DNA from: Starkeya sp. ORNL1
GTDB lineage: Bacteria > Pseudomonadota > Alphaproteobacteria > Rhizobiales > Xanthobacteraceae
DNA: 64,000 nucleotides
Reading direction: 5' to 3'
Assembly (NCBI RefSeq): GCF_012971745.1
Contig: NZ_CP048834.1
Location: forward strand, 2,542,001-2,606,000
The position numbers were made by a program, and so were the translations under genes. Under the pieces are notes generated by a model, which saw only the letters and a list, made by a program, of their open reading frames with translations, was not told the DNA's origin and made no database searches. This document shows positions 5,207-35,143 of the stretch, piece after piece. Positions within the stretch are counted from its first letter, which is position 1; each line of letters begins with the position of its first letter.

Positions 5207-5950
5207 AGGATCATGCCCATACGTGCTTTGGAGCGCCGAAAGGTCCAGACGATCCGCTCTACGGCCTTGAATACCTTACACGCAAGACTTCCGACTGTAC
5301 ATCATCATCATCCTTTAGGGAATATCCGAAGCCTATCTCCTCGTGCAGGTAGTCGACGCTGGCGTCACCTTAGCCATCTCAATAATCGCAACATGCGCGC
5401 CCGTACTTCAGAGCGTTTTCGCATGTAGACTCTACCTTCCCTCATCAGTTTGACGGTCGAACCGCAGGAGGCGTGAGGAACGCTTAATGGGCGGTTCGCG
5501 CCTGAGACGCTCAATGACTTCAATCATGGGCCGCAAGGGCCAGCTTGCCGCCCGTACTTGAAGTGACCCTAATGCCCTCCCCGATGCCCCCACACTGCGA
5601 TTGCTGGGCCGGGGAGCCTGAGGTCGGCATTCTCACGCTCACCTGCGGACTTCGTCGGGGTGCATGCGGAAAGGCTAAGCCCCCGGGTCAAGCCCGGGGA
5701 TGTGGGCCATTGCGAATTGCAGGGCAGCCTCTCTGGCCGGCGCGCCTGCGTGATCGACACCATCAGAAGACTGAACGCGCGCCCCTCGCGGTACGGCAAG
5801 CGTCATTCGTATATTTTCTACTGTATCTATAGAAAATGTTGACTTCGACGAATTTGAAGGGATGATGACGGGGACATTCCCGTCCGGACCACGCCTGCGC
5901 AGAGCCGTGGCGCCGGGCTTCCGATGAACCGCCTTCGCAGGAACCCGCTC
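5207..5950. other. Intergenic region without a supported gene
   Basis: Short open frames here look random. At about 5677-5703 there is half of a palindromic element (CCCGGGTCAAGCCCGGGG) of the same type as 15231-15320. An AT-rich inverted repeat at 5813-5837 is listed separately and probably belongs to the promoter of the operon that follows. The rest shows nothing recognisable. Confidence 0.6.
5813..5837 (+). promoter_or_regulatory. AT-rich inverted repeat upstream of the ABC/redox operon
   Basis: ATTTTCTA at 5813-5820 is mirrored by TAGAAAAT at 5830-5837, with a 9-base spacer containing TATCTAT. It stands out in a GC-rich region about 115 bases before the first gene of the operon. That position suits an operator or activator site overlapping a promoter. 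The regulator is unknown; a LysR-type sulfur regulator is only a guess. Confidence 0.4.
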
Positions 5951-7030
5951 ATGTCCAACGCCTCGCCGGTAAAAGCCCTACGCGCCCTCCTGATCGCCGC
6001 CGCGACCGCGGTGGTCGCGCTCTCCTCGCTGCCCGCACATGCCGAGACGCCGCCCTCCGTCATTCGCCTTGCCGGCCAGGGCAATGCCGCCGGCAAGCCC
6101 TATGGCTCGGCGGTGATCGGCGTGGTGCGCGCCAAGGAATATCTGGAGAAGGAATTTGCCAAGGATGGCGTGAAGATCGAGTGGCAGTTCCCGCGCGGCA
6201 CCGGCCCGGCGATCAATGAGGCGCTGGCCAATGGCCAGGCCGACTTCGCCAATTATGGCGGCCTGCCGAACATTGTCGGCCGCGGCGCCGGGTTGCGCAC
6301 CAAGGTGCTGGCCTCCTACGGCACCAACCCCTCCTATCTCGTCGCCCGGCCGGACGCCAAGGTGGAGAAGCTGGCCGATCTCAAGGGCAAGAAGATCGCC
6401 GTCTCGCGCGGCACCATCAACGAGTTGGCGCTCAACCGCGTGCTGGCGCAGGGCGGCCTCACCGAGAAGGACGTCACCATCTTCGACCTGCAGAGCGCAG
6501 ACCAGGTGTCCGCCGTCTCCTCGGGCGATGTCGATGCCGTGCTCGGCGGCAACAACCTTCTGACCCTGGTCGACAACGGCACGGTGAAGACGGTCTATTC
6601 CACCAAGGGCAGCCCGGCGCCGGGCAGCCTGTTCGGCTCCTTCATCGTCACCGAGGAGTTCGCCAAGAAATACCCGGAGACGACAAGGCGCGTGGTGAAG
6701 GCCCTCGTCGAAGCCGCCGCCTTCGCCTCGGATGAGAAGAACCGCGAGGCCGTGCTCGACATCTGGGCGCTCACCGGCGTGCCGCGCGACGCCCTCGCCA
6801 AGGATTTCGCCGGCGACAAGCTGGCCGACCGGCTGAACCCGCTGCTGGACGATTTCTACCGCTCCAACATCACCAATGGCGTGAAGTTTGCGGTCGACAA
6901 CAAGCTGATCAAGGCCTCGTTCGATGTGAACCAGTGGGTCGATCCCAGCTATCTCGACGCCGCTATCAAGGAGCTGAAGATCGAGGGCGTGTGGAAGCCG
7001 CGCGATGCCTCGGGCAATCCGCAGAGCTGA
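5951..7030 (+). CDS. Sulfonate/taurine-type ABC transporter substrate-binding protein
   Basis: A 359-residue periplasmic binding protein of the SsuA/TauA/NrtA superfamily. A signal peptide runs over about residues 1-31, ending AHA before ETPPS. Hallmarks are a short N-terminal strand, the DFANYGGLPNI segment that forms part of the ligand pocket, LKGKKIAVSRGT, and a hinge-following VSAVSSGDVDAVLGG. The start at 5951 is preferred over ATG 5924 because AGGAA lies seven bases upstream. It heads a seven-gene operon with its permeases and ATPase further down. Ligand identity cannot be read from sequence; a sulfonate or other organosulfur compound fits the family, but nitrate- or riboflavin-precursor-like ligands are not excluded. 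Confidence 0.85.
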   Translation: MSNASPVKALRALLIAAATAVVALSSLPAHAETPPSVIRLAGQGNAAGKPYGSAVIGVVRAKEYLEKEFAKDGVKIEWQFPRGTGPAINEALANGQADFANYGGLPNIVGRGAGLRTKVLASYGTNPSYLVARPDAKVEKLADLKGKKIAVSRGTINELALNRVLAQGGLTEKDVTIFDLQSADQVSAVSSGDVDAVLGGNNLLTLVDNGTVKTVYSTKGSPAPGSLFGSFIVTEEFAKKYPETTRRVVKALVEAAAFASDEKNREAVLDIWALTGVPRDALAKDFAGDKLADRLNPLLDDFYRSNITNGVKFAVDNKLIKASFDVNQWVDPSYLDAAIKELKIEGVWKPRDASGNPQS

Positions 7031-7060
7031 GCCGCCGCATCCGATCCGAAGGAGCCCGAC

Positions 7061-7651
7061 ATGCCCTTGACCGAAGCCAACCCCGTTCGCCTCGGCGCGC
7101 CCGCGCCCGACTTCGCGCTGCCCGACACCAATGGCCGCGTGCATCGCCTGGGTGATTTCGATGCCGCGCCGGCCTTGCTGGTGGCGTTCATCTCCAACAC
7201 CTGCCCGTTCGTGGTGCATATCAGCGAGGGGTTCGCGCGCTTCGCCCGCGACTTCGCCGATCGCGGCCTCGCCGTGGTGGCGATCAACGCCAATGACGAC
7301 GCCACGCGCCCGGACGAGAACCTCGCCGCGCTCGGCCTTGAGGCGGCGCGGGCCGGCTATGGCTTCCCGTATCTGAAAGATGCCGGCCAGGAGGTCGCCC
7401 GCGCCTATGGCGCCGCCTGCACGCCCGACCTGTTCCTCTATGACCGCGACCGGCGCCTCGCCTATCACGGCCAGTTCGACGACAGCCGGCCGAAGAACGA
7501 CAAGCCGTTGACCGGCGTGGACCTGCGCGCCGCCGTCGTGGCGCTGCTGGCCGGCGGCCGACCGGCAGAGACGCAGGTGCGCTCCATCGGCTGCAACATC
7601 AAATGGCGCCCCGGCAATGAGCCGGCCGTCGAAGGATCGGCGGCGGCCTGA
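7061..7651 (+). CDS. Thioredoxin-fold protein of the AhpC/TSA superfamily
   Basis: A 196-residue cytoplasmic-looking protein without a signal peptide. It begins with the peroxiredoxin-like LGAPAPDFALPDTNG, then FISNTCPFVVHISEGF with a single Cys in the NTCPFV position (a CxxC is absent), a cis-proline-type region ACTPDLFLYD, and a C-terminal SIGCNIKW. This combination defines a bacterial thioredoxin family of uncertain substrate. AAGGAG precedes ATG 7061 at good spacing. It follows the binding-protein gene by 30 bases and precedes the flavoprotein, so it is likely co-expressed with them. A role in thiol chemistry or protection during handling of a sulfur compound is inference. Confidence 0.85.
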   Translation: MPLTEANPVRLGAPAPDFALPDTNGRVHRLGDFDAAPALLVAFISNTCPFVVHISEGFARFARDFADRGLAVVAINANDDATRPDENLAALGLEAARAGYGFPYLKDAGQEVARAYGAACTPDLFLYDRDRRLAYHGQFDDSRPKNDKPLTGVDLRAAVVALLAGGRPAETQVRSIGCNIKWRPGNEPAVEGSAAA

Positions 7652-7701
7652 TCCGGGCGGGCACCATCCTCAGTCCAAGAGTGGCCAGTCCAAGAGCAGC
7701 A

Positions 7702-9336
7702 ATGTCCACCAGGCTTTCCCGCAGCAAGACGGCAGATCGCACCGCGCCGCTGGAGCTCGACACCGAGGTGCTGGTGCTCGGCGGCGGGCCGGCGGGCGCC
7801 TGGGCGGCGGTCTCGGCCGCCGAGCTTGGCCGGCGCGTGGTGCTGGTGGACAAGGGCTATTTCGGCACCAGCGGCGCCACCGCGCCGTCCAACACCGGCA
7901 CCTGGTGCCTGCCGCCGGGCGAGGCGCGTCGCACCGCCGTGGAGCGCCGCGCCGCCCGCACCTTCGGCCTGTCCGACCAGCGCCAGACGCTGCGCGTGCT
8001 CGACACCGCGCACGAGACGCTGCGCCAGCTCGGCGCCGCTGGCTACCCCTTCCCGCATGACGAGCGTGGCGAGCTCTACATCGCCAATCTGCGCGGCCCG
8101 GACTATATGCGCTTCATGCGCCGCCGGGCGCTGACGCTCGGTGTCACCGTGCTCGATCATCATCCGGCGCTGGAGCTCATCGGCGACAGCGACGGCATTG
8201 GCGGCGCCGCGGGGTGGGACCGGCAGAACGGCCGCGCCTGGCAAATTCGTGCCGGCGCCGTGGTCATCGGCACCGGCGGCTGCGCCTTCGGCGAGCGCAT
8301 GCTGGGCGCCACCGGCCTTACCGGCGACGGCTATCTGATGGCGGCCGAGGCCGGCGCCAGCCTCTCCGGCATGGAATTCTCTAACCAGTATGGCGTCGCC
8401 CCGGCGCACTCTTCGCTCAACAAGGGCCTGATCTATCGCTGGGCGAGCTTCTTCGACGCCGACGGCCACGGCATCGACACCGGCGCCGACCGCCATCTCG
8501 CGGTGGCGCAGGCGCTGCTCAACGGGCCGGTCTTCGCCAGCCTCGACAAGGCGGAGCCGCAGATCCAGGACTGGCTGCGGCGCGGCCAGCCCAATTGCTT
8601 CCTGCCGTTCGACCGCATCGGGCTCGACCCCTTCACCCAGCGCTTCGAGGTGACGCTGCGCAGCGAGGGCACGGTGCGCGGCGTCGGCGGCATCCGCCTC
8701 GCCGACGAGAATGGCTGGACCGGCGTGCCCGGCCTGTTCGCCGCCGGCGACGCCGCGAGCCGCGAGGACCTCACCGGCGCCATCTCCGGCGGCGGCGGGC
8801 CCAACGCCTCCTGGGCGATCGCCAGCGGGCGCTGGGCGGGGCGCGCCGCTGCCCGCTTTACCGAGGGCGCCGGGCGCCGGCAGGGCCGCCGGCTGCGCCC
8901 GCTCGGCACCATCGGGCTCAGGCCTACCGCCAATGCCATCGAGGCAACGGACGGCGCGGCCCTGAGCGCCGATCTCGCGAGGGGGGTGCGCGAGGAGATG
9001 CTGCCGATCGACCGCGCCTTCTTCCGCGCGGCCCCCACGCTGGAGCGCTCTCTCCATCGCCTTGACGGGCTGTGGCGCGATGCCCGTGCCGGGCTGGCGG
9101 CCGAGGGTCACGCGGCGTTGCGGGCGCGCGAGGCCGGCGCCCTGCTCGCCACCGCGCGCTGGGCGTTGAGCGCCGCGCTGGTGCGCACCGAAAGCCGCGG
9201 CATGCACCGGCGCACCGACCATCCCGCGCTCGACCCCGCGCTCACGCTGCGCCTTGGCGTAAGCGGGCTCGACCAGGTGATGGTCGCGCCCGAAATAGCG
9301 GGCGAGGCCGACGACCGGCGCGTGGCGGCATCATGA
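7702..9336 (+). CDS. FAD-dependent flavoprotein of the fumarate reductase/AprA-like group
   Basis: A 544-residue soluble flavoprotein. A Rossmann GGGPAG at residues 27-32 is followed by VVLVDKG. Later come GAVVIGTGGCAFG, the loop GATGLTGDGYLMAAEAGA, and the FAD-closing GLFAAGDAAS. These features place it in the succinate dehydrogenase/fumarate reductase flavoprotein superfamily, closest in layout to adenylylsulfate-reductase-alpha-like proteins. Its stop overlaps the ferredoxin start in an ATGA, so the two are probably made as a complex. ATG 7702 is used; GTG 7681 is possible, and neither has a strong ribosome site. The substrate is unknown. Close coupling to an ABC importer suggests it oxidises or reduces an imported compound or its product. 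Confidence 0.8.
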   Translation: MSTRLSRSKTADRTAPLELDTEVLVLGGGPAGAWAAVSAAELGRRVVLVDKGYFGTSGATAPSNTGTWCLPPGEARRTAVERRAARTFGLSDQRQTLRVLDTAHETLRQLGAAGYPFPHDERGELYIANLRGPDYMRFMRRRALTLGVTVLDHHPALELIGDSDGIGGAAGWDRQNGRAWQIRAGAVVIGTGGCAFGERMLGATGLTGDGYLMAAEAGASLSGMEFSNQYGVAPAHSSLNKGLIYRWASFFDADGHGIDTGADRHLAVAQALLNGPVFASLDKAEPQIQDWLRRGQPNCFLPFDRIGLDPFTQRFEVTLRSEGTVRGVGGIRLADENGWTGVPGLFAAGDAASREDLTGAISGGGGPNASWAIASGRWAGRAAARFTEGAGRRQGRRLRPLGTIGLRPTANAIEATDGAALSADLARGVREEMLPIDRAFFRAAPTLERSLHRLDGLWRDARAGLAAEGHAALRAREAGALLATARWALSAALVRTESRGMHRRTDHPALDPALTLRLGVSGLDQVMVAPEIAGEADDRRVAAS

Positions 9337-9659
9337 TCGAGGTGGTCTCCGATACGCGCTGCATCGCCTGCGATATATGCGTGCGCGCCTGCCCGGCGAA
9401 CGTGTTTGACGCGGTGCCCGAGGCGGCGCCGGTGATCGCCCGCCAGCAGGACTGCCAGACCTGCTTCCTGTGCGAGATCTATTGCCCGGTGGATGCGCTC
9501 TATGTGCATCCGAATGCCGAGCGCCCGACCGGAATCACCGAGCAACACGTCACCGAGCGCGGCCTGTTCGGCTCCTATGCGCGCGGGCTCGGCTGGCGCC
9601 GCGGCAAGGCCGCCGGTGCGGACGAAGACCCGACCTTCCAGCTCCGTGCCTTCCTGTGA
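9333..9659 (+). CDS. Ferredoxin with two [4Fe-4S] clusters
   Basis: A 108-residue protein with two complete cluster motifs, Cys10/13/16/20 (CIACDICVRACP) and Cys41/44/47/51 (CQTCFLCEIYCP). A C-terminal tail of about 55 residues may contact the partner. ATG 9333 overlaps the flavoprotein stop by four bases, and an in-frame extension upstream is only a shadow of the flavoprotein gene. The arrangement mirrors AprA-AprB, where a small ferredoxin subunit shuttles electrons to or from the FAD subunit. It is most simply the electron-transfer subunit of the preceding flavoprotein. Confidence 0.88.
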   Translation: MIEVVSDTRCIACDICVRACPANVFDAVPEAAPVIARQQDCQTCFLCEIYCPVDALYVHPNAERPTGITEQHVTERGLFGSYARGLGWRRGKAAGADEDPTFQLRAFL

Positions 9660-9680
9660 TGGCGATGAGGAGAAATGCCG

Positions 9681-10550
9681 ATGTCCGATCTCGGGATTGA
9701 GCGCGCAACCCCGCTCACCGCCGCCTTGGCGCTCGGCGACGACCGCCGGCTGTTGAGCGATGCCGGGCGGCTGCTCGCCCCGCTCTGGCGCCGGGCATCC
9801 ACCCTCCTGATCGCGCTGCTGCTGCCGGCGGCGCTGGTTGCGGTGTGGTCGCTGGCGGTGCGCTGGGAAGTGCTGGCGCCGCAGATCCTGCCTGCGCCCG
9901 GTCTCGTCTGGCAGACGTTGGTCGATCTCGTCGTCTCCGGGCAGTTGTTCTCCGAGCTGGCGGTGAGCCTCGGCCGGGTTGCCGCGGGCGTTGTCGCCGG
10001 CGGCCTGCTGGGCCTCGGCTTCGGCATCGCCTTCGGCGTGTCGCCCCGCTTCGAGGCCTATGTCTCGCCCACCGTGCGGGCGATCTTCCTGGTGCCCTCG
10101 CTTGGCTGGCTGCCGTTCTTCATGCTGATCTTCGGCATTGGCGAGACGCTGAAGATCGTGCTGATCGCCAAGACCTGCTTCCTGCCGCCGATGGTCAATG
10201 CCTTCGACGCCATCCGCGCGCTGCCCGACAAGTATCGCGACGTCGCCCGCGTGCTGGAGCTCGATCACCGCGCCACGCTGCGCTACGTCGTGCTGCCCGC
10301 GGTGCTGCCGGCGGTCGCCACCGGCTTTCGCCTCGCGCTGAGCAAGGGCTGGAAGGCGCTGATCCTGGTGGAGATGATCTCTTCGGCCGCCGGCATCGGC
10401 TATCTGATGATGTGGGGCCGCAAGTCGTTTCAGCTCGATGTGGTGTTCGCCACCATGGTGGTGATCGGCCTGGTCGGCTGGGCGCTCGACCATGGCCTGT
10501 TCAAGCTGCAGCAGCGGGCCACCGGCTGGTCCTTCCACAGCGCCGAGTGA
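9681..10550 (+). CDS. ABC transporter permease, SsuC/TauC type (first of two)
   Basis: A 289-residue inner-membrane protein with about six transmembrane segments and the EAA-type cytoplasmic loop around RDVARVLELDHRATLRYVVL. ATG 9681 is preferred over ATG 9675 because AGGAG sits at correct spacing. It shares only moderate similarity with the next gene, so the importer probably has a heterodimeric channel, whereas SsuC/TauC systems usually use one permease twice. It lies 21 bases after the ferredoxin and 9 bases before the second permease. Confidence 0.9.
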   Translation: MSDLGIERATPLTAALALGDDRRLLSDAGRLLAPLWRRASTLLIALLLPAALVAVWSLAVRWEVLAPQILPAPGLVWQTLVDLVVSGQLFSELAVSLGRVAAGVVAGGLLGLGFGIAFGVSPRFEAYVSPTVRAIFLVPSLGWLPFFMLIFGIGETLKIVLIAKTCFLPPMVNAFDAIRALPDKYRDVARVLELDHRATLRYVVLPAVLPAVATGFRLALSKGWKALILVEMISSAAGIGYLMMWGRKSFQLDVVFATMVVIGLVGWALDHGLFKLQQRATGWSFHSAE

Positions 10551-10559
10551 GGGGGAACC

Positions 10560-11351
10560 ATGAAACCCTCAGCGACCGGCCTGTCGCTCTCGCGCTGGCG
10601 CGGCTTGGTACTGCCGCTTGCGTTGGTCGGCCTGTGGGCGGCGCTCAGCGCCGGGGGGGCGATCAATAGCCGGCTGCTGGTTCCGCCGGCCCAGGTGGTC
10701 ACGACGGCCATTGAAGGCTTTTCCGACGGCTCGGTGCCCGGCGCGCTGGCGGCGACGTTGCTGCGCGCGCTCGCCGGCTGGAGCATCGGCGTCGCCGCCG
10801 GCCTGCTGGTGGGGATCACGCTCGGCCTCTCCGGCGTCGCCCGGCGGCTCGCCGATCCCACCATCAACAGCGCCCGGCAGATCGCACTGTTCGCCTGGAT
10901 CCCGCTGCTCAGCGCCTGGTTCGGCAATGGCGAGGTGATGAAGATCACCCTCATCGCCATCGGCGCCTTCTTTCCGATGGCGCTGGCGGCGGAGGCCGGC
11001 TGCTACAATGTGCCGGCGCCCTATCGCGAGGTCGGACGCGTGCTCGAACTGGACCGCTGGACCACGCTCACGCGCATCGTGCTGCCGGCGGCGACCCCGG
11101 CGCTGCTGTCCGGCCTCGAACTCTCGCTCAATATCGCCTGGCTCGGCACCTTCGGCGCCGAATATCTGATCGGCACCGGCTACATCAACGGCATGGGCGA
11201 CGGGCTCGGCGCCTATCTCGCCGCCGCCCGCGAATATGCCCGCATGGACAAGGTGATCGTCGGCGTGGTCTCGCTAGCGCTGCTCGGCCTCGCGCTCGAC
11301 CGCGCCATCGTGCTGCTCTCAAGGAGGATATTGCCGTGGTCGAGGCACTAG
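10560..11351 (+). CDS. ABC transporter permease, SsuC/TauC type (second of two)
   Basis: A 263-residue integral membrane protein with about six helices. The EAA-like loop reads REVGRVLELDRWTTLTRIVL and aligns with the same segment of the preceding permease (RDVARVLELDHRATLRYVVL). GAGGGGG lies upstream of ATG 10560. Its 3' end overlaps the ATPase gene by 16 bases, typical of tightly coupled importer operons. With the preceding permease it should form the translocation pore that receives substrate from the binding protein at 5951-7030. Confidence 0.9.
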   Translation: MKPSATGLSLSRWRGLVLPLALVGLWAALSAGGAINSRLLVPPAQVVTTAIEGFSDGSVPGALAATLLRALAGWSIGVAAGLLVGITLGLSGVARRLADPTINSARQIALFAWIPLLSAWFGNGEVMKITLIAIGAFFPMALAAEAGCYNVPAPYREVGRVLELDRWTTLTRIVLPAATPALLSGLELSLNIAWLGTFGAEYLIGTGYINGMGDGLGAYLAAAREYARMDKVIVGVVSLALLGLALDRAIVLLSRRILPWSRH

Positions 11352-12151
11352 AAGCGACACGGCCCGTGCCGGCCGAGAACGCACCGCGCCGCAGCTCGGT
11401 CGAGATACGCGGCGTCTCCAAGACCTTCATTGTGGACGGCGGCAAGGTCGAGGCGCTGGCGGATGTTTCGCTCAGCGTGCGGCCCGGTGAGTTCATCAGC
11501 CTGGTGGGGCCGAGCGGCTGCGGGAAGTCGACGCTGCTGCGCTTCCTCGCCGGGCTCGATCTGCCTGACAGTGGCAGCATTGCCGTCGACGGCGTGCCGG
11601 TCGCCCGGCCGAGCCTGACCCGCGGCATCGTGTTCCAGGACCATCGCCTGCTGCCCTGGCTGAGCGTCACCGACAATATCCTGCTCAGCCTCAACAGCCG
11701 TCCGGGCACCGACGCCGAAAAGCGCGAGCGGGTGGCCGAGCTGATCCGCCTGGTCGGCCTCGCCGGCTTCGAGAACGCCCATCCGCATCAGCTCTCCGGC
11801 GGCATGTCGCAGCGCGCCGCCATCGCCCGCAGCCTTGCGCCGCGCCCGCGTTTGCTGCTGCTCGACGAGCCGCTCGGCGCGCTGGATTCGCTCACCCGCT
11901 CCTATCTGCAGGACGAGTTGCTGCGGCTGTGGGAGCATGAGGGCATCACCGTGGTGATGGTGACCCATGATGTCGAGGAGGCCGTGTTCCTGTCCGACCG
12001 CATCGTGGTGATGGATCCCCGGCCCGGCCGGGTGCGGCGGATCTTCGACATTCCGGCCGAGCGCCCGCGCCGACGCGCCGCGCCGGACTTCGTCGCGGTG
12101 AAGGAGGAAATCCTCAGTCTGCTGCTGGGAGGGCGCGCGCCCGCCGGCTGA
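11336..12151 (+). CDS. ABC transporter ATP-binding protein, SsuB/TauB type
   Basis: A 271-residue nucleotide-binding subunit. Walker A is GPSGCGKST (residues 58-66), the signature LSGGMSQR is at 153-160, and Walker B LLLLDEP has Asp177. VMVTHDVEEAVFLSDRI supplies the switch His and the D-loop region. The start is GTG at 11336 with AGGA upstream, inside the end of the permease gene. It powers the importer encoded by this operon. The stop lies within a 46-bp sequence that recurs 1.5 kb downstream. Confidence 0.93.
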   Translation: MVEALEATRPVPAENAPRRSSVEIRGVSKTFIVDGGKVEALADVSLSVRPGEFISLVGPSGCGKSTLLRFLAGLDLPDSGSIAVDGVPVARPSLTRGIVFQDHRLLPWLSVTDNILLSLNSRPGTDAEKRERVAELIRLVGLAGFENAHPHQLSGGMSQRAAIARSLAPRPRLLLLDEPLGALDSLTRSYLQDELLRLWEHEGITVVMVTHDVEEAVFLSDRIVVMDPRPGRVRRIFDIPAERPRRRAAPDFVAVKEEILSLLLGGRAPAG

Positions 12152-13788: not shown

Positions 13789-15141
13789 ATGGCCAGCAGC
13801 AAGCAACTGCATCTCGGCGCCTTCATGCGCCCGGTGAGCATCCATACCGGCGCCTGGCGCTATCCCGGCGCCTGGCCCGACGCCAATTTCAATCTCAAGC
13901 ACCTCACCCGCCTTGCGCAGACGCTCGAGCGCGGCAAGTTCGACGCCTTCTTCATGGCGGACCACCTCGCGGTGCTGAACATGCCGGTGGAGGCGCTGAA
14001 GCGCAGCCACACCGTGACCTCGTTCGAGCCGTTCACGCTGCTCTCCGCGCTCGCCGGGGCGACACAGCGCATCGGGCTGGTCGCCACCGCCTCGACCACG
14101 TTCGACGAGCCCTACCATGTCGCCCGCCGCTTCGCCTCGCTGGACCATATCAGCGATGGCCGGGCGGGCTGGAACATCGTGACGACGTCGAACCCCGACG
14201 CGGCGCTCAATTTCGGGCTCGAAGACCATATGGAGCATGACGAACGCTATGTCCGCGCCCGCGAATTCTATGATGTGGTGACCGGGCTGTGGGACAGCTT
14301 CGCCGACGACGCCTTCAGCCGCGACGTTGCGAGCGGGCTCTATTTCGACCCCGAGCGGCTGCATGCGCTCGCCCATAAGGGCAAGTATTTCTCGGTGCGC
14401 GGCCCGCTCAACATCGCCCGGCCGGTGCAGGGCTGGCCGGTGATCGTGCAGGCCGGCGCCTCGGAAGCCGGGCGCCAGCTCGCCGCCGAGACCGCGGAGG
14501 CGATCTTCGCCGCAGCGCCGAACCTCGCCGCCGGCAAGGCCTTCTACGCCGATATGAAGGGCCGGCTCGACAAGCTCGGTCGCCCGCGCGACCACCTCAA
14601 GATCCTGCCCGGCGCCTTCGTCGTGGTCGGCGACAGTGTCGAGGAGGCCCGCGCCAAGCGCGCCAGGCTCGACAGCCTGGTGCATTATGACAGCGCCATC
14701 GCCTCGCTCTCCATCGCGCTCGGCCATGATGCCTCCGGCTTCGATCCGGACGGGCCGCTGCCCGACATCCCCGAGACCAATGCCAGCCGCAGCGCCCGCG
14801 AGCGGGTGATCGACCTCGCCCAGCGTGAGCATCTCACCGTGCGCCAGCTCGCCCAGCGGCTTGGCGGCTATTCCGGCCTCGCCTTCGTCGGCACCCCCGC
14901 CACCATCGCCGACCAGATGGAGGAATGGCTGATGAGCGAGGGCAGCGACGGCTTCAACGTGATGTTCCCGTATCTGCCCGGCGGCCTCGACGACTTCGTC
15001 GACAAGGTGGTGCCGGAACTGCAACGCCGCGGCCTGTTCCGCCGCGAGTATGAGGGCACCACGCTGCGCGAGCATCTCGGCCTGCCGCGGCCGGAGAACC
15101 GGTTCTTCACCGACAGTGGAAAGATGGCGCAGGGTGCATGA
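13789..15141 (+). CDS. LLM-class flavin-dependent monooxygenase (NtaA/SnaA/DszA-like)
   Basis: A 450-residue enzyme of the bacterial-luciferase-like FMNH2-dependent monooxygenases. Typical marks are LHLGAFMRP near the N-terminus, FDAFFMADHLAV, GATQRIGLVATASTTF, the stretch DHISDGRAGWNIVTTSNPDA, and the late FVGTPATIADQME. Members cleave C-S or C-N bonds in compounds such as nitrilotriacetate and dibenzothiophene sulfone, using reduced flavin from a separate reductase. The start at 13789 is supported by GAGGA upstream; GTG 13759 is less likely. It lies downstream of the ABC/redox operon in the same direction, separated by the repeat-flanked insert. Joint action on an organosulfur substrate is plausible but inferred. 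Confidence 0.85.
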   Translation: MASSKQLHLGAFMRPVSIHTGAWRYPGAWPDANFNLKHLTRLAQTLERGKFDAFFMADHLAVLNMPVEALKRSHTVTSFEPFTLLSALAGATQRIGLVATASTTFDEPYHVARRFASLDHISDGRAGWNIVTTSNPDAALNFGLEDHMEHDERYVRAREFYDVVTGLWDSFADDAFSRDVASGLYFDPERLHALAHKGKYFSVRGPLNIARPVQGWPVIVQAGASEAGRQLAAETAEAIFAAAPNLAAGKAFYADMKGRLDKLGRPRDHLKILPGAFVVVGDSVEEARAKRARLDSLVHYDSAIASLSIALGHDASGFDPDGPLPDIPETNASRSARERVIDLAQREHLTVRQLAQRLGGYSGLAFVGTPATIADQMEEWLMSEGSDGFNVMFPYLPGGLDDFVDKVVPELQRRGLFRREYEGTTLREHLGLPRPENRFFTDSGKMAQGA

Positions 15142-16324: not shown

Positions 16325-17077
16325 ATGGCCCACCTCGTCCGCCCGCTCCTCACCGCCCTCGTTTTGCTCGGCCTGTGGGAAGCCGCGGTGCGGGTGATGG
16401 GCGTGCCGGCCTATATCCTGCCCGGCCCCATTCGCATCGGCGCCGCGCTGTGGGACAACCGCACGATACTGGTGGAGAACGCCGCCATCACGCTGGGGGA
16501 GATGCTGCTCGGGCTGCTGTGCGGCGCCGCGCTCGGCATTGGCTGCGCGCTCTTGATGGCGGCCTCGCCGACCGCGCGGCGGGCGCTCAGGCCAGTGCTG
16601 CTAGTGGCGCAGGCGCTGCCGGTGTTCGCCATCGCCCCGCTGCTGGTGATCTGGTTCGGCTTCGGCCTCGCCTCGAAGATCGTGATGGCGAGCCTGATCA
16701 TCTTCTTTCCCGTCGCCTCGGCCTTCCATGACGGGCTGGCGCGCGTCGACCAGGGGCTGGTCGACCTCGCCCGGCTCTATGGCGCCGGCACTACGGCCAG
16801 CCTCCGTTATATCCGCATCCCCGCCGGCCTGCCGGCGCTGGCCTCGGGCCTGCGGGTCGCCACCGCGGTGTCGCCGATCGGCGCCGTGGTCGGCGAATGG
16901 GTCGGCTCCTCCGCCGGGCTCGGCTATCTCATGCTCTATTCGAACGCGCGGATGCAGACCGACATGGTGTTCGCCGCACTCGCCATCCTGCTCACCGTGG
17001 CGCTGGTGCTGTTCGCCTGCGTGGACCGGGCGCTGACCCGGCTGGTGCCCTGGGCGCCGGAGACGCTGGGGCGGTAG
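16325..17077 (+). CDS. thiX: ABC transporter permease, probably ThiX (thiamin pyrimidine uptake)
   Basis: A 250-residue membrane protein with about six helices and an EAA loop around LVDLARLYGAGTTASLRYIR. The segment SPIGAVVGEWVGSSAGLGYL followed by LMLYSNARMQTD is characteristic of the ThiX/RibX subgroup. Downstream, after a repeat and a TPP riboswitch, lies a matching ThiY-type binding protein, which supports uptake of a thiamin precursor such as HMP. Oddly, the permease is upstream of the riboswitch rather than under it, and no ThiZ ATPase is present in the window. Confidence 0.75.
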   Translation: MAHLVRPLLTALVLLGLWEAAVRVMGVPAYILPGPIRIGAALWDNRTILVENAAITLGEMLLGLLCGAALGIGCALLMAASPTARRALRPVLLVAQALPVFAIAPLLVIWFGFGLASKIVMASLIIFFPVASAFHDGLARVDQGLVDLARLYGAGTTASLRYIRIPAGLPALASGLRVATAVSPIGAVVGEWVGSSAGLGYLMLYSNARMQTDMVFAALAILLTVALVLFACVDRALTRLVPWAPETLGR

Positions 17078-17094
17078 GGGTTCCTCGGCTTGAA

Positions 17095-17196
17095 CATCCT
17101 TCGAGGCCGCCTGCGGCGGCACCTCAGGATGAGGTCGCATTTTAAAGAACTACCTCATCCTGAGGTGCCCGGCGAAGCCGGGCCTCGAAGGATGCT
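17095..17196. repeat. Palindromic intergenic repeat, family A
   Basis: Two inverted halves, CATCCTTCGAGGCC..ACCTCAGGATGAGG and CCTCATCCTGAGGTGC..GCCTCGAAGGATG, face each other around an AT-rich centre. The same composite occurs at 20008, 22027, 33440, 54795 and 59806. Here it separates thiX from the riboswitch. Confidence 0.9.
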
Positions 17197-17252
17197 CAAG
17201 CCGAGCGCCGCCCCTCGCGGTTGCCGCTCCATGACGCCTCTGTTACGGTCCG

Positions 17253-17342
17253 ACCCGTCCGAGGGGTGTCTCGCAAGAGGCTGAGATGGCGTGAGCCAGA
17301 CCCTTTGAACCTGATCCGGGTCATGCCGGCGAAGGGACGGAG
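17253..17342 (+). promoter_or_regulatory. TPP (THI-box) riboswitch
   Basis: The leader contains the conserved core in order: GAGGGGTGTC, GGCTGAGA, then CCCTTTGAACCTGATC followed by CGGGTCATGCCGGCGAAGGG. These match the THI-element helices that bind thiamin pyrophosphate. It lies about 85 bases before the thiY start, so thiY expression should fall when TPP is abundant. Confidence 0.95.
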
Positions 17343-17424
17343 CCAAGGCCGGGGCGCGTTGCGTCCGCGGCCGGAAGATCCCCCAAAAGCTCGTGTCTCG
17401 GGTCTCCACATCAGGAGGAGATCC

Positions 17425-18381
17425 ATGCTGAAGAACCTTATCCCGGCGAAGATCCTGGCCGCCGCCGGCCTTGCACTCGCGGTCTCGCTGTCGCCGGCCG
17501 CGGCCGCCGAAAAGCTCACCGTGCTGCTCGACTGGTACGTCAATCCCGACCACGCCCCGCTGATCATCGCCAAGGAGAAGGGCTTTTTCGACGCCCACGG
17601 GCTCGATGTGACGCTGGTAGCGCCGGCCGATCCTGCCGCGCCGCCGCGCCTCGTCGCCGCCAAGCAGGCGGAGATCGCGGTCGGCTACCAGCCGAACCTC
17701 TATCTCTCGGTGAAGGAGGGCCTGCCGCTGGTGCGCTTCGGCACGCTGGTCTCCACCCCGCTCACCGCGCTGGTGGCGCTGAAGGACGGGCCGATCAAGA
17801 AGATCGCCGACCTCAAGGGCAAGACCGTTGGCTATTCGGTGGCCGGGCTGGAGGATGCGCTGCTCGGCGCCATGCTGACCGACGCCGGGCTGAAGCCCAC
17901 GGATGTCACGATGGTGAACGTCAATTTCGCGCTCTCCCCGGCGCTCGTCGCCGGCAAGGTCGATGCGGTGATCGGCGCCTATCGCAATTTCGAACTCACC
18001 CAGATCAGGCTGGAGGGCAAGGAAGGCACCGCCTTCTTCCCGGAAGAGCATGGCGTGCCGGTGTTCGACGAGCTGATCTACATCACCCACAAGGATCTCA
18101 TCGCCGACCCGCGACTGAAGAAGTTCCTCGCTGCGGTGGAGGACGCCACCATCTTCATCCTCAACCATCCGGACGAGGCGTGGGGCGTGTTCGTGAAGGC
18201 GAACCCGAAGCTCGACGACGAATTGAACAAGACCGCCTGGGCCGACACGCTGCGCCGCTTCGCCCATGCCCCGGCAGCGCTGGACAGCGAGCGCTATGAG
18301 CGGTTCGGCGAGTTCATGAAGGCCCATGGGCTGATCGACAAGGTCGAGCCGGTGGAGACCTACGCTCCGAAGCTGCCCTGA
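17425..18381 (+). CDS. thiY: Thiamin-precursor ABC substrate-binding protein (ThiY-like)
   Basis: A 318-residue periplasmic protein with a signal peptide ending about AAA before EKLTV. The mature start LTVLLDWYVNPDHAPLIIA, then EKGFFDAHGLDVTLV and VGYQPNLYLS, are typical of the NMT1/THI5-like binding proteins that carry the thiamin pyrimidine HMP or its formyl derivative. AGGAGGAG precedes ATG 17425; an open frame to 17221 simply reads through the riboswitch. Control by the TPP riboswitch directly upstream strongly supports the assignment. The partner permease is probably thiX at 16325, while the ATPase must come from elsewhere. Confidence 0.88.
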   Translation: MLKNLIPAKILAAAGLALAVSLSPAAAAEKLTVLLDWYVNPDHAPLIIAKEKGFFDAHGLDVTLVAPADPAAPPRLVAAKQAEIAVGYQPNLYLSVKEGLPLVRFGTLVSTPLTALVALKDGPIKKIADLKGKTVGYSVAGLEDALLGAMLTDAGLKPTDVTMVNVNFALSPALVAGKVDAVIGAYRNFELTQIRLEGKEGTAFFPEEHGVPVFDELIYITHKDLIADPRLKKFLAAVEDATIFILNHPDEAWGVFVKANPKLDDELNKTAWADTLRRFAHAPAALDSERYERFGEFMKAHGLIDKVEPVETYAPKLP

Positions 18382-22835: not shown

Positions 22836-23669
22836 TCAGATGAACCGCTTGCGGACGTTCTGGCTCACCACGTCAAGCACCGACACCGTGACGATGACCA
22901 TGATGAGGATGGCGGAGGCCTGGGAGTAGTTGAAGCCGCGCATGGTCTCGTTGAAGGTCATGCCGATGCCGCCGCCGCCGACGATGCCGAGCACGGTCGC
23001 CGAGCGCACGTTCGATTCGAAACGGTAGAGCGCGTAGGAGATCCACAGCGGCAGCACTTGCGGCAGCACGCCATAGACCACTTCCTGCAGCCAGCTGCCA
23101 CCGGTGCCGCGAATGCCCTCGACCGGCGCGGGGTCAATGGCCTCCACCGCCTCCGAGAACAGCTTGGCGATGATGCCGGTGGTGTGCACCCACAGCGCCA
23201 GCACGCCGGCGAACGGGCCGAGGCCGACCGCGGCGATGAAGATCAGCGCGAAGACAAGTTCATTGATGGCGCGGCAGGCGTCCATCAGCCGGCGTACCGG
23301 GAAGGCCACCCAGCGCGGCACCACGTTGTCGGCGCACAGAATGCCGAAGGGGATGCCGACGATGACTGCGAGCAGCGTGCCCCACACCGCGATCGCCAGC
23401 GTCTCCACCATATTGACGGCGTAGAGTTCCCAGTCCGAGAAGTCCGGTCGCATGAAGTCGGCGCCGAGCGTCGCCATGTTGGCGGAATCGCGCCACAGCT
23501 GGGCCGGGTTCATCTCCGCCTCGTACCAGCAATAGACCAGCACGACGATGGCGACGGCGCCGCCGACGAGCTGGATCAGCCGGGTGCCGAGCGGCGTCAC
23601 CGGCGGCGCCGGGGTCGCGAGCGCGGCAGAACGATGGGCGGCGTCGGAGAGGAGCATTTGCAACTTCAT
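22836..23669 (-). CDS. phnE: Phosphonate ABC transporter permease PhnE
   Basis: A 277-residue inner-membrane permease. After a short cytoplasmic N-terminus there are about six helices, with the characteristic [20 protein letters not shown], the segment [19 protein letters not shown], and the EAA-like region [20 protein letters not shown]. PhnE forms the pore of the phosphonate/phosphite importer. A family B repeat separates it from phnD upstream. No C-P lyase genes follow in the window, so either the phosphonate is metabolised by enzymes elsewhere or the system takes up a related anion. Confidence 0.93.
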
Positions 23670-23680
23670 CCCGTCAGGTC

Positions 23681-23770
23681 GTCATCCCGGCCGCAGAGAA
23701 GCGAAGAGCCGGGATCGCTCTCCATTCTGCACGCGATCCCGGATCGGCCTTGCGGCCGTCCGGGATGACG
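23681..23770. repeat. Palindromic intergenic repeat, family B
   Basis: GTCATCCCGGCCGC..AGCCGGGATCGC and GCGATCCCGGATCGGCC..GTCCGGGATGACG form the two arms. It sits inside the phn operon, between phnD and phnE. Confidence 0.9.
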
Positions 23771-23814
23771 TCTTTTTGGAACCCGAGCCGGCGCAGGCCG
23801 GCCCGAGAAGCCAA

Positions 23815-24831
23815 TCACATGGTCGGGGTCTTCTTCGCCTGGGCTTCGAGGTCGGCGAGCTGGGCGTCGATGTCCTTCAGCTTCTTGGCCTTGTCCTCGG
23901 CCGAGAGCTTGTCGTCGTTCTGGGTCTTGATCTTGACCTTGAACAGCTCGAGCTGGCGGATCGGGATCAGCTGAGCGTTGGAGGAGGCGGCGAACAGGCC
24001 CCAGCCGTCGGAGGTCTTGGCGAGGACTTCACGCGCATGCGCCACTTCCTCGTCGGTGCCGAGGCGGCCATAGGTCATGAAGAAGGTGTAGATCTTGGCC
24101 TTCAGGTCGGCGGGGAGATCCTTGCGCCACACCAGCGGGTCGCCGGCGATCAGCGGGGAGCGCCACACTTCCTTGATCTTCTTGGCTTCTTCCGGACGGG
24201 TCTGCTGCAGGCGGGTCATGTTCTCGGTGTTGTTGGTCGCGAAGTCGACCTGCTTGTTGGCGACCGCGAGCAGATTGCCCTCATGGTTGCCGGTGACGAC
24301 GCGCTTGTAGCACTTGTTCGGATCGACATTGTTCAGGGCGAACACATAATAGCTCGGCACCAGGAAGCCCGAGGTGGAGTTCGGGTCGCCATTGCCGAAA
24401 TTATAGCCCTTCGTGCAGTCGAGCACGTCCTTCAGATTGTTGATGTCGCTGCGATCGGCATTGGTGACGATCAGCGCGTAGTAGCCGCGCGAGCCATCGG
24501 GCTTCGCGGTCTGCACGAACACTTCGCCATCGGCGCGATCAACCGCTTCCATGGCCGACTTGTTGCCGAACCAGCCGATATCGACCTTCTTGAAGCGCAT
24601 GCCTTCGATGACGCCGGCATAGTCGCCGACGAAGAACGGCTTCACCGGGATGCCGATCGCCTTTTCGAGATCCTTCAGCAGGGGCTCGAAGCTCTTGGCG
24701 AGGTTGGCCGAGGATTCGGTGGAGATGAAGCCGAAATTCAGCTGCTTGATCTCTTCGGCGGCGCGGGCGGGCGCTGCCAGCGGGGCCGCGAGGGCAGCCA
24801 GCGCAAGGCCGGCGGCGAGAAGGCGCTTCAT
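23815..24831 (-). CDS. phnD: Phosphonate ABC transporter substrate-binding protein PhnD
   Basis: A 338-residue periplasmic protein with a signal peptide (MKRLLAAGLALAALAAPLAA, cleavage about ARA before AEEIK). The family marks are LNFGFISTESSANLAKSFEP, the pocket region KKVDIGWFGNKSAMEAV, and VPSYYVFALNNVDPNKCYKR. ATG 24831 has AGGAG upstream; the frame extends to 24867 but would overlap the phnC end. It delivers phosphonate, or a similar phosphorus oxyanion, to PhnE. Confidence 0.93.
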   Translation of the reverse strand: MKRLLAAGLALAALAAPLAAPARAAEEIKQLNFGFISTESSANLAKSFEPLLKDLEKAIGIPVKPFFVGDYAGVIEGMRFKKVDIGWFGNKSAMEAVDRADGEVFVQTAKPDGSRGYYALIVTNADRSDINNLKDVLDCTKGYNFGNGDPNSTSGFLVPSYYVFALNNVDPNKCYKRVVTGNHEGNLLAVANKQVDFATNNTENMTRLQQTRPEEAKKIKEVWRSPLIAGDPLVWRKDLPADLKAKIYTFFMTYGRLGTDEEVAHAREVLAKTSDGWGLFAASSNAQLIPIRQLELFKVKIKTQNDDKLSAEDKAKKLKDIDAQLADLEAQAKKTPTM

Positions 24832-24863
24832 GATCGTCGCTCCTGTTCCAGGACGAGTGGTGT

Positions 24864-25694
24864 TCACGAGACGTGCGCCGGCTCGCGGGCGGGGATTTCG
24901 CCCGACACCGCGAACTGGCTGGGAAGAATGAGTTCCTCGGCGCTGGCGCCGTAGAGTTCGGTGAGGAAGGCCGCGTCGATGCGGCTGGCCGGCCCGTCGA
25001 ACACGACGCGCCCGGCATTCATCGCGACCACGCGGTCGAAATAGGCGGTGGCGTAATCCACCTGGTGCAGCGAGACGACCAGCGCGATGCCATGGTCGCG
25101 GCTCATCGTCACCAGCGTGTCCATCACCCGCTTGGCCGACTTCGGATCGAGCGAGGCGATGGGCTCATCGGCCAGCACCAGCTTGGCGCCCTGCACCAGG
25201 GCGCGGGCGATGGCGACGCGTTGCTGCTGGCCGCCGGAAAGCTCGCGGGCCTTCTTGCCCGCGTGCGCCTGGATGCCGACCTCGGCGAGCGCGGCAAGCG
25301 CAGTGCGGCGCTCATCATCGTTCCAGAAGCCGAACGTGCCGCGGAAAGCGTTGACGCGGCCGAGCGCACCGACCAGCACATTGGTCATCACGCTGAGCCG
25401 GCCAACCAGGGCGAATTGCTGGAACACCAGGCCGATATGGCGGCGGGCGCGGCGCACCTCGCGCGACAGCCGCCCGCTATCCTGCACCCCCACGCCGAAG
25501 GAGGTGACCTTGCCCGAGCCCTTGTCGGCCAGCGCGAGACCGGAGGCGATGCGGATGAGAGTGGACTTGCCGGAGCCGGAAGCGCCGATCAGCGCCACGC
25601 GCTCGCCCTCCCCGATCGAGAGCGAGACATTGTCCACGGCACGCATGGCGCCGTAGGTCTTGCTCACGCGGTCGAGTTCGAGCGCAGCCGCCAT
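24864..25694 (-). CDS. phnC: Phosphonate ABC transporter ATP-binding protein PhnC
   Basis: A 276-residue ATPase. It has Walker A GASGSGKST, the signature LSGGQQQR, Walker B VLADEPIASLDP, and SLHQVDYATAYFDRVVAMN, typical of PhnC. It is the first gene of phnCDE, 32 bases before phnD. The C-terminal extension of about 25 residues after ELYGASAEE is within family variation. Regulation by the phosphate response is expected, but I found no convincing Pho box upstream. Confidence 0.93.
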   Translation of the reverse strand: MAAALELDRVSKTYGAMRAVDNVSLSIGEGERVALIGASGSGKSTLIRIASGLALADKGSGKVTSFGVGVQDSGRLSREVRRARRHIGLVFQQFALVGRLSVMTNVLVGALGRVNAFRGTFGFWNDDERRTALAALAEVGIQAHAGKKARELSGGQQQRVAIARALVQGAKLVLADEPIASLDPKSAKRVMDTLVTMSRDHGIALVVSLHQVDYATAYFDRVVAMNAGRVVFDGPASRIDAAFLTELYGASAEELILPSQFAVSGEIPAREPAHVS

Positions 25695-33550: not shown

Positions 33551-33721
33551 GCTACCCCCGCCAAAACGTCACATCCGCCAAACCGTCGCGCGGCATGCCG
33601 CCGCCGCGGCCGCGCGCGCAGCACCCGCTGCTGTCTGTTTGACATATGCTAATTCCATACTGCGATCCGGAAGCGTAGATTTTTGCTACGCTGCGGCATC
33701 GGCGCAGGCATGGGGGAGATG

Positions 33722-35140
33722 ATGGACCTCGATCCGGTTCTTCTGGCACGCATCCAGTTTGCCTTCACCATTTCCTTCCACATCATATTTCCCAGCTTCA
33801 CCATAGGCTTGGCGGCCTATATCGCGACGCTGGAAGTGCTGTGGATCTCGACTGGTCATGAGCGCTACCACCGAATCGCGCGGTTCTTCACCAAGATCTT
33901 CGCGGTGTCGTTCGCCATGGGCGTGGTGTCCGGCATCGTGCTCTCCTACCAGTTCGGCACCAACTGGAGCAATTTCTCCCGGGTGGTCGGCAATGTGGTC
34001 GGGCCGCTGATCGGCTACGAGGTGCTGACCGCCTTCTTCCTGGAGGCGACCTTCCTCGGCATCATGCTGTTCGGCTGGAACAAGGTGCCGCGGCCGCTCC
34101 ACGTCTTCGCGTCGATCGCGGTGGCGGTGGGCACCACCATGTCCGCCTTCTGGATCCTGTCCGCCAATAGCTGGATGCAGACCCCGGCCGGCTACGAGAT
34201 GGTCAATGGCGTCGCCATTCCGACAGACTGGCTCGAGGCGATCTTCAATCCGAGCTTCCCCTATCGCCTCGCCCATATGGTGACGGCCTGCTACCTCACC
34301 ACCGCATTCGTGGTGCTGGCGGTCGGGGCGCGCTACCTCGTCGCCGGACGCTTCCCGGAAGACGGGCGCACCATGATGCGCATGGCCATCGGGCTGATCG
34401 CGATCTTCGCCCCGCTCCAGGCCCTCATCGGCGACCAGCACGGCCTCAACACGCTGGAACACCAGCCGGCCAAGATCGCCGCCATCGAGGCGCATTGGGG
34501 CGGCGAGAGCACCTCGCCGAACGCCGGCGTGCCGCTGGTGCTGTTCGCCATCCCGAATGAAAAGGAAGAGCGCAACGACTACCAGATCGCCATCCCCCGG
34601 CTCGGCAGCCTGATCCTGACCCATACGCTTGACGGCACCTTCAAAGGGCTGAAGGAATTTCCGCCGAACGACCGGCCGCCTGTGGCGGTGCCGTTCTTCG
34701 CCTTCCGCGTCATGGTCGGCATCGGCCTGCTGATGATCGCCATCGGCTGGGTCGGCGCGTTCCTGCTGTGGCGTCGCCGGCTGTTCGACAGCGACTGGTA
34801 CCTGTGGCCGACGCAATTCGTCTGGCCGCTCGGCTTCATCGCCGTGCTGTCCGGCTGGTTCGTCACCGAAGTCGGCCGCCAGCCGTGGATCGCGACGGGG
34901 ATATTGCGCACGCTCGACGCCGCCTCCCCGGTCACCGGCTGGCAAGTGGCGACGACCCTGGTGCTGTTCGTGCTGGTCTATGGCGTCGTGTTCTCGATGG
35001 GCATCTATTACATCAACCGCCTGATCGTGAAGGGCCCGCAAGGCGCCGCCATCGAGACGCCGGAAAACCTTCCGCCCAGCCGACCGCTCTCCGCCGCGGG
35101 CGATGCCGCCCGCGACGCCATCGCAACGCCGGGGGCTTGA
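33722..35140 (+). CDS. cydA: Cytochrome bd-type ubiquinol oxidase subunit I (short Q-loop, CioA-like)
   Basis: A 472-residue integral membrane protein with about nine helices. His20 in SFHIIFPS and the later His in YRLAHMV are the expected haem ligands. GDQHGLNTLEHQPAK follows the quinol-binding area, and GWFVTEVGRQPW is the conserved late motif. The quinol loop is short, as in the cyanide-insensitive CioA group. The start is ATG 33722 or 33719, just after GGGGGAG. With CydB it reduces oxygen using ubiquinol at high affinity. A TTGACA sequence at about 33639 could be part of its promoter. Confidence 0.95.
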   Translation: MDLDPVLLARIQFAFTISFHIIFPSFTIGLAAYIATLEVLWISTGHERYHRIARFFTKIFAVSFAMGVVSGIVLSYQFGTNWSNFSRVVGNVVGPLIGYEVLTAFFLEATFLGIMLFGWNKVPRPLHVFASIAVAVGTTMSAFWILSANSWMQTPAGYEMVNGVAIPTDWLEAIFNPSFPYRLAHMVTACYLTTAFVVLAVGARYLVAGRFPEDGRTMMRMAIGLIAIFAPLQALIGDQHGLNTLEHQPAKIAAIEAHWGGESTSPNAGVPLVLFAIPNEKEERNDYQIAIPRLGSLILTHTLDGTFKGLKEFPPNDRPPVAVPFFAFRVMVGIGLLMIAIGWVGAFLLWRRRLFDSDWYLWPTQFVWPLGFIAVLSGWFVTEVGRQPWIATGILRTLDAASPVTGWQVATTLVLFVLVYGVVFSMGIYYINRLIVKGPQGAAIETPENLPPSRPLSAAGDAARDAIATPGA

Positions 35141-35143
35141 GCC

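Follow-up and report, generated by a model that had tools for sequence, protein, structure and literature searches.

A flavoprotein-ferredoxin pair linked to sulfonate-type importers, with a possible role in organosulfur scavenging, in Starkeya sp. ORNL1 and other bacteria

The genome of Starkeya sp. ORNL1 (GCF_012971745.1) carries an operon in which a flavoprotein (FLA) and a ferredoxin (FDX) are encoded within a sulfonate-type ATP-binding cassette (ABC) importer. The operon was analysed in a stretch of 64,000 nt (contig NZ_CP048834.1, 2,542,001-2,606,000; hereafter the window), part of a 6.29-Mb single-contig genome. Judged from its sequence, FLA belongs to a clade of the fumarate reductase / AprA superfamily that is as yet without a name and is associated with sulfur scavenging. 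FLA-FDX may be a cytoplasmic flavin adenine dinucleotide (FAD)/[4Fe-4S] oxidoreductase serving organosulfur scavenging, a reading whose chances we regard as even. The initial annotation had described seven co-oriented genes with a 4-base overlap between FLA and FDX, and the coordinates of the open reading frames (ORFs) at 5951-12151 bear this out. The seven ORFs, in their order on the plus strand, are followed below by two neighbouring features:

5951..7030, plus strand: SBP, SsuA/TauA-type periplasmic binding protein (PF09084 (NMT1), TIGR01728, PDB 3uif)
7061..7651, plus strand: PRX, AhpC/TSA peroxiredoxin-like protein (PF00578; Cys48, Cys120, Cys178)
7702..9336, plus strand: FLA, FAD_binding_2 flavoprotein of 544 aa (FAD_binding_2 and Succ_DH_flav_C, PF02910)
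9333..9659, plus strand: FDX, 2x[4Fe-4S] ferredoxin of 108 aa (Fer4-type Pfam domains)
9675..10550, plus strand: ABC permease of the SsuC/TauC/SaoP type (PF00528, BPD_transp_1)
10560..11351, plus strand: ABC permease of the SsuC/TauC/SaoP type (PF00528, BPD_transp_1)
11336..12151, plus strand: ABC ATPase of the SsuB/TauB/NrtCD/SaoA type (PF00005, ABC_tran)
13789..15141, plus strand: LLM, NtaA/DmoA-family FMN-dependent monooxygenase, outside the tight operon (TIGR03860; a neighbourhood link)
5839..5866, plus strand: weak sigma-70-like promoter match upstream of the operon (consensus match only)

The gaps across the seven genes measure 30, 50, -4, 15, 9 and -16 bases and, since they are short or overlapping, the genes likely form one transcription unit. 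The FLA/FDX junction reads ATGA, and SBP has an alternative in-frame start, ATG at 5924. The promoter scan returned 2 sigma-70-like matches in the region (both strands), with 0.6 expected in shuffles, while terminator-like sites showed no excess there (3 found, 3.6 expected). The Rfam scan of the window gave no element at the operon. None of the seven proteins reached an NCBIfam cut-off among the matches listed, which for FLA, FDX and the ATPase were the best 25 families each (for the ATPase, the best 25 of 188 rows).

Conserved co-occurrence of these genes in other genomes, a check proposed in the initial annotation, was confirmed in a sample of 100 FLA loci. Eighty of these came from the homologue search and 20 from the 59 plasmid records with an FLA match (tblastn, E≤1e-30), loci from the genome search being left out; neighbours were detected by tblastn (E≤1e-8 and ≥45 bits per stretch), some stretches ending at contig ends. 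FDX was found in 94 loci, an SBP in 81, an ATPase in 74, a permease in 68, the full ABC set in 66 and PRX in 37. By comparison, FDX, SBP, permease, full ABC set and PRX were found in none of 29 control stretches, nine of them around other FAD_binding_2 genes of the Starkeya genome and 20 arbitrary ones in four FLA-bearing genomes. The controls gave ATPase matches in eight stretches (four in each of the two groups) and a single LLM match, in the own-genome set. Near FLA and on the same strand, an SBP was present in 73 loci and the full ABC set in 61. Some of the queries had been taken from FLA-bearing loci, which favours such loci; with the eight proteins of the window as the only queries, FDX was still found in 94 loci, an SBP in 69 and the ABC set in 55. 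After dereplication at 70% FLA identity, all of the 35 remaining loci had FDX, 28 an SBP, 27 an ATPase, 27 a permease and 25 the ABC set (SBP 23/35 and ABC set 21/35 with window queries only).

FDX is encoded directly downstream of the best FLA copy in 83 of the 100 loci, upstream in 3 and in neither position in 14. Of the 17 loci lacking an FDX directly downstream, 11 carry one at another place in the stretch, for the most part next to the first FLA where a cyanobacterium has two copies. Measured from the FLA stop to the FDX start, 52 of the 83 measurable pairs have a spacing of -4 bases, the commonest value, and 11 have -1. The linkage recurs in four phyla (Pseudomonadota, Cyanobacteriota, Actinomycetota and Bacillota) and in different arrangements:

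Rhizobia: PRX-FLA-FDX-ATPase-permease-SBP
Burkholderiaceae: SBP-ATPase-permease-FLA-FDX
Shinella, Paracoccus, Haematobacter and Roseateles plasmids: FLA-FDX-SBP-permease-permease-ATPase
Paracoccus and R. daejeonense: LLM-SBP-permease-ATPase-FLA-FDX
Sphingobium: LLM-FLA-FDX
Nostoc: FLA-FDX-SBP-FLA
Actinomycetospora: SBP-FLA-FDX-FLA-FDX
Raoultella: SBP-FLA-FDX-permease-permease-ATPase

The binding proteins of 73 loci, window included, fall into 10 groups at 35% identity. Divergence of FLA and of SBP is correlated across 38 representatives (Mantel r=0.67, p=0.001), a statistic that leaves shared genome ancestry in. The closest relative of the window SBP, at 63% identity, is encoded on a Shinella plasmid (L098) whose FLA is only 46% identical, while three other loci (L011, L032 and L080) have FLA at 55-58% but SBP at 30% identity. 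In the tree, the window FLA pairs weakly (96/47) with the Raoultella FLA, whose SBP belongs to the SBP group of the window, and both sit inside a set (98/93) that also contains FLA of the rhizobial type. The PRX-FLA-FDX cassette thus tends to move together with the transporter, although it has apparently been exchanged as well. In seven loci of Nostoc and its kin (L044, L046, L047, L051, L052, L058 and L062) there is a second FLA copy without a ferredoxin of its own, the first match being partial in L046 and L058. The Nostoc arrangement suggests that two different flavoproteins could sit in one complex and share one ferredoxin.

FLA is the sole match in its own genome at E≤1e-10, and elsewhere at least 3612 proteins match it at E≤0.001 (7995 candidates scored). 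Its holders include alpha-, beta- and gammaproteobacteria, Nostoc and other cyanobacteria, Actinomycetospora, Pseudonocardia, a Myxococcales isolate, a Rokubacteria metagenome-assembled genome and a Paenibacillus plasmid. With the own genome counted, FLA was found in 11 of 297 genomes of the order (E≤1e-60) and in 11 of 398 genomes of the phylum (E≤1e-120).

The initial annotation had called FLA AprA-like, and a tree with AprA, SdhA and FrdA had been proposed as a check. In this tree, a branch with support 100/99 sets the 23 FLA rows apart, AprA and the methanogen enzyme MtPAPSR form a clade (100/100) without FLA, and FLA is separate from SdhA/FrdA/NadB as well; the order of branching between the clades is weak (66/12). 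Hence FLA stands in a clade of its own and not in one with a known unrelated reaction. Curated models agree, as FLA reached neither the AprA model NF005331 (38 bits, cut-off 557) nor the SdhA/FrdA model TIGR01812 (77 bits, cut-off 567), and its genome holds no TIGR02061 match at E≤1e-100. In the profile comparison SdhA (E=8.3e-25) was matched more strongly than AprA (E=1.2e-13), and AprA is therefore not the nearest family. The predicted structure (predicted local distance difference test score, pLDDT, 84) has, among the families listed by the fold searches, a FrdA/NadB/PAPSR-like fold, and a Pyr_redox_2 match is restricted to residues 22-52, which are the FAD Rossmann motif.

Active-site positions were compared in a MAFFT alignment of FLA with SdhA and AprA, in which we take the aligned residues of the latter two to have catalytic or flavin-linking roles. 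Gly58 of FLA aligns with the flavin-linking His of SdhA (RSHTVSAQG), Glu322 with the His of HYMMGG, and a Gly of SGGGG with the Arg of NRLGGNS, while at the position of the Arg in RGEGG the four FLA rows compared have no Arg. The His of the AprA motif MGSH aligns with Val/Thr in FLA, or with a gap in the profile comparison, and the Arg of RFKDGYGP falls in an FLA gap in both alignments. What remains of the AprA likeness is thus membership of the same superfamily, and FLA as a member of AprA/AprBA is rejected by tree, model score, residues and profile comparison. Membership of SDH/FRD is rejected likewise, by the tree, the TIGR01812 score and the residues not kept. FLA has its own conserved positions: G132, R140, D152, P155, R326, D350 and R476 are invariant in 108/108 rows, a set that holds the window twice (WIN and L099), two copies from some loci, a few long or partial frames and possibly some genomes present in both sources. 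Near-invariant in the same rows are R354, R495 and R499 (107/108), E497 and H502 (106/108), R305 (105/108) and E322 (104/108). Cys338 was considered as a catalytic residue and set aside; 98 of the 108 rows have Cys at this position but the window has Gly, and Cys occurs there in FrdA too.

All eight cysteines of FDX are kept in 102-103 of 103 rows, as are G80 and W88 of its C-terminal tail in 103/103. No curated family was over its cut-off among the FDX matches listed, and the beta subunit of MtPAPSR appears only low in the list of PDB matches (E=5.8e-7). By sequence, FDX is a generic 2x[4Fe-4S] protein. The label 'AprB-like' therefore holds insofar as a small 2x[4Fe-4S] chain is encoded beside the flavoprotein, an arrangement that is not AprB-specific, but not as kinship with AprB beyond the superfamily. 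PRX had been described as a single-Cys thioredoxin-fold protein, which is incorrect: it is of the AhpC/TSA type, with Cys48, Cys120 and Cys178 each kept in 35/35 aligned rows (the window and 34 loci with a match of ≥100 bits). Its closest PDB entries are 3u5r (uncharacterised), 2ywi (hypothetical) and 2cvb (probable thiol-disulfide isomerase).

The remaining genes encode an ABC importer of the SsuA/TauA type, with an NMT1/SsuA-type binding protein, BPD permeases and an ABC ATPase. The best PDB match of SBP, which by eye has an apparent signal peptide, is SsuA (3uif, E=9.5e-44). Against TIGR01728 (SsuA_fam) it scored 148.3 bits, under the cut-off of 163.5 but closer to one than any other of the seven proteins, with other sulfonate/taurine models lower; both permeases were under all NCBIfam cut-offs listed.

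The sulfur context extends beyond the importer. In the window, the LLM gene starts 1.6 kb downstream of the operon on the same strand, past two small ORFs (alternative start 13759), and its product scored 576 bits against TIGR03860, over the cut-off of 279.7. The contrast drawn earlier with ssu and tau operons, which carry a monooxygenase or dioxygenase, thus stands for the operon itself, which has none, but not for its neighbourhood. Of 13 FLA-near LLM-type proteins extracted, eight were scanned and all eight passed TIGR03860. The window LLM is 78% identical to the one near FLA in a Nostoc plasmid (L090:4813-6150), an unusually high value between an alphaproteobacterium and a cyanobacterium; its identity to the other FLA-near LLMs is 43-56% (nine) or 32% and 25% (two), and one gave no match at E≤1e-10. 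Because of this identity, and because FLA is nearby in both, a sulfur-scavenging set has likely been transferred horizontally. In two Sphingobium plasmids, LLM, FLA and FDX follow one another with 4-base overlaps between the genes. SfnB-like proteins near FLA passed TIGR04022 in three of four cases, the Nostoc one being below it (301 vs 431 bits). According to annotations read by eye, 13 of the 20 plasmid loci have a sulfur-acquisition-type gene beyond the importer: LLM or SsuD, SfnB, TauD family, EpsC, cysDN, YeeE/YedE, rhodanese, TauE/SafE sulfite exporter, arylsulfatase or transsulfuration-type pyridoxal phosphate (PLP) genes. One of them combines a sulfate-exporter-family gene with EpsC and a TauD-family gene.

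A 268-aa PhnD/SsuA-like protein is encoded divergently to FLA, on the minus strand, in three Rhizobium and Agrobacterium plasmids (L094:7987-8793, L127:6991-7797 and L133:6979-7785), by eye without a signal peptide in L094 and L127. It could be a cytoplasmic enzyme or sensor; DszB, for instance, has a binding-protein fold.

We propose that a PRX-FLA-FDX cassette is built into an SsuABC/TauABC-type importer operon, and that FLA and FDX would most likely form a soluble cytoplasmic complex, as AprA does with AprB, holding one non-covalent FAD and two [4Fe-4S] clusters. The complex would catalyse a two-electron step whose substrate is either the organosulfur anion taken up by the importer or its conversion product from an NtaA/DmoA-type flavin monooxygenase, after which the sulfur would be released as sulfite and enter assimilation. 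FDX would pass the electrons, and PRX may protect or recycle thiols of the same pathway. We weakly prefer a reduction over an oxidation, as FLA lacks the flavin-linking His of SdhA and has a ferredoxin, not an SdhB-type chain, for its partner. Gene organisation and neighbours speak for a soluble FAD/[4Fe-4S] oxidoreductase in the service of organosulfur scavenging, and the pair could act on the imported compound, on the monooxygenase product or as an electron donor. Variety among the importers, like the direct coupling to a monooxygenase in Sphingobium, points to a step that several substrates have in common; the correlated divergence of FLA and SBP points to some substrate specificity.

Several observations weigh against this proposal. 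Seven of the 20 annotated plasmid loci have no sulfur gene seen beyond the importer. An LLM was found in only 22 of the 100 loci (also with window queries only), near FLA and on the same strand in 8, and in 8 of the 35 dereplicated loci; since it was not detected in most FLA loci, the monooxygenase is not an obligate partner. PRX is present in only 11 of the 35 dereplicated loci, and six of the 100 are without any FDX match, one of which (L071) is a truncated contig. Nitrate and vitamin precursors, too, are transported by members of the SsuA/TauA superfamily, and two binding-protein-like neighbours match phosphonate-type models weakly, below cut-off, so the substrate need not contain sulfur. 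Finally, the patchy occurrence of FLA would fit an accessory trait of any kind.

Conceivably, FLA-FDX could be not the enzyme acting on the organosulfur compound but an electron-transfer module that supplies reduced FMN to a flavin monooxygenase or feeds sulfite reductase, which we consider unlikely but worth keeping in view. NtaA/DmoA-family monooxygenases need reduced FMN, the overlap of the three genes in Sphingobium would suit such a role, and several kinds of importer beside the pair are what a shared helper would predict. Most loci, however, have no LLM detected, the Pyr_redox_2 match covers only the FAD motif, and the highly conserved Arg and Glu residues of FLA would suggest a substrate pocket. 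If the pair stood in for CysJ, genomes with FLA should have CysJ genes less often, yet CysJ-like matches are commoner in FLA-bearing genomes (9 of 11) than in others (84 of 286), which weakens this idea; this comparison takes both draws of 297 genomes as identical and is confounded by lineage and genome size.

Alternatively, the operon might serve a sulfur-free compound, such as a dicarboxylate, a nitrogen compound or a vitamin precursor, with FLA being fumarate-reductase- or aspartate-oxidase-like. FLA shares the overall fold and the C-terminal domain (PF02910) with SdhA/FrdA and NadB, SdhA being nearer than AprA by profile. At the aligned positions it keeps neither the flavin-linking His nor the dicarboxylate His/Arg set (HYMMGG, NRLGGNS and RGEGG), and a bacterial-type ferredoxin stands in place of SdhB. 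No SdhB-type or membrane subunits were found in the operon, which besides FLA has only PRX, FDX and ABC genes and is thus without a membrane anchor. Curated sulfur-acquisition families among the neighbours in several lineages likewise speak against a sulfur-free substrate, and we judge this alternative to have a small, though real, chance of being right.

Chemistry of the AprBA/PAPSR kind, through a flavin-sulfite adduct that the pair makes or uses, in the oxidation of sulfonate-derived sulfite (detoxification) or in activated-sulfate reduction, is decidedly unlikely. The methanogen PAPS reductase MtPAPSR (PMC10322725; PDB 8a8o) was taken as the comparison system. Like FLA-FDX, both AprBA and MtPAPSR consist of an FAD_binding_2-type alpha chain of the same fold and a small 2x[4Fe-4S] beta chain, and part of the FLA loci share their sulfur-linked context. 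In contrast to these enzymes, FLA lies in a separate clade, far under the AprA cut-off, nearer SdhA by profile and without the AprA His and Arg; its operon includes an importer, and sulfite needs no dedicated importer in an operon. That FLA and FDX are chance neighbours of the importer is very improbable: the mosaic-like SBP and FLA identities of the window would fit it, but the linkage recurs in four phyla and varied arrangements, is missing from the 29 control stretches and comes with correlated FLA/SBP divergence, genome ancestry included.

Compared with ssu and tau operons (SsuEADCB and TauABCD), the window operon encodes importer parts (SBP, permease and ATPase) from one and the same superfamily, but it has two permeases and no ssuD or tauD, PRX-FLA-FDX stand between SBP and the permeases, and an NtaA/DmoA-family monooxygenase follows downstream. 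Pathways of the Sfn/Dsz type combine SfnB/DszC-like with NtaA/DmoA/DszA-like monooxygenases, and both families occur near FLA-FDX in several loci; to our knowledge, the pair is not a described part of these pathways. We found no description of FLA-FDX as a system in the open-licence PMC literature, most subscription papers being outside this scope, and no curated family was above its cut-off for FLA or FDX among the matches listed. This is in line with the earlier statement that no known pathway matches this exact gene set. P. phymatum Bphy_7232-37 was considered as a published case and rejected, as the genes named in the available part of the source are a monooxygenase and ABC parts, with no FAD/ferredoxin pair. 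PP_0206 of P. putida is tabulated as a ferredoxin induced by zinc (PMC6066579).

Three other loci in the window were noted. A thiamine pyrophosphate (TPP) riboswitch (RF00059, 76 bits) at 17252-17354, the sole gathering-score match of the Rfam scan, lies upstream of a gene for an NMT1/ThiY-like binding protein (by eye), with a permease gene adjoining; 16325-18381 probably encodes a thiamine-precursor importer separate from the FLA-FDX operon. By eye from translations, 22836-25694 on the minus strand encodes a PhnC/PhnD/PhnE-like phosphonate-type importer, and 33683-36169 on the plus strand holds two genes resembling cytochrome bd oxidase subunits. Outside the window, PP_0204-PP_0210 of P. putida are a putative further FLA-FDX locus.

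Much organic sulfur in soils is stored as sulfonates, and the known aerobic routes of sulfonate assimilation rely on oxygenases. A bolder form of our proposal, speculative and in our estimation improbable, is that FLA-FDX would represent an undescribed enzyme family for the oxygen-independent cleavage or activation of organosulfonates by flavin/[4Fe-4S] electron transfer. Such a family would be common to proteobacteria, cyanobacteria, actinobacteria and bacilli and would be combined with various importers. If true, this would open a further way to organic sulfur, next to SsuD and TauD, which depend on oxygen, and to the glycyl-radical lyases. With the FLA clade, a superfamily in which sulfur chemistry is known from AprA and PAPSR gains a further sulfur-associated clade, and since FLA-FDX is small, easily deleted or purified and encoded by genes that usually overlap or abut, its role is readily testable. 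The recurrence of FLA-FDX beside sulfonate-type importers, and in part beside NtaA/DmoA monooxygenases, points to a sulfur-scavenging step that is unnamed in the curated libraries scanned. As it accompanies importers and genes of sulfur scavenging in many bacteria that are not related, the pair may reveal an undescribed step in the use of organosulfur compounds.

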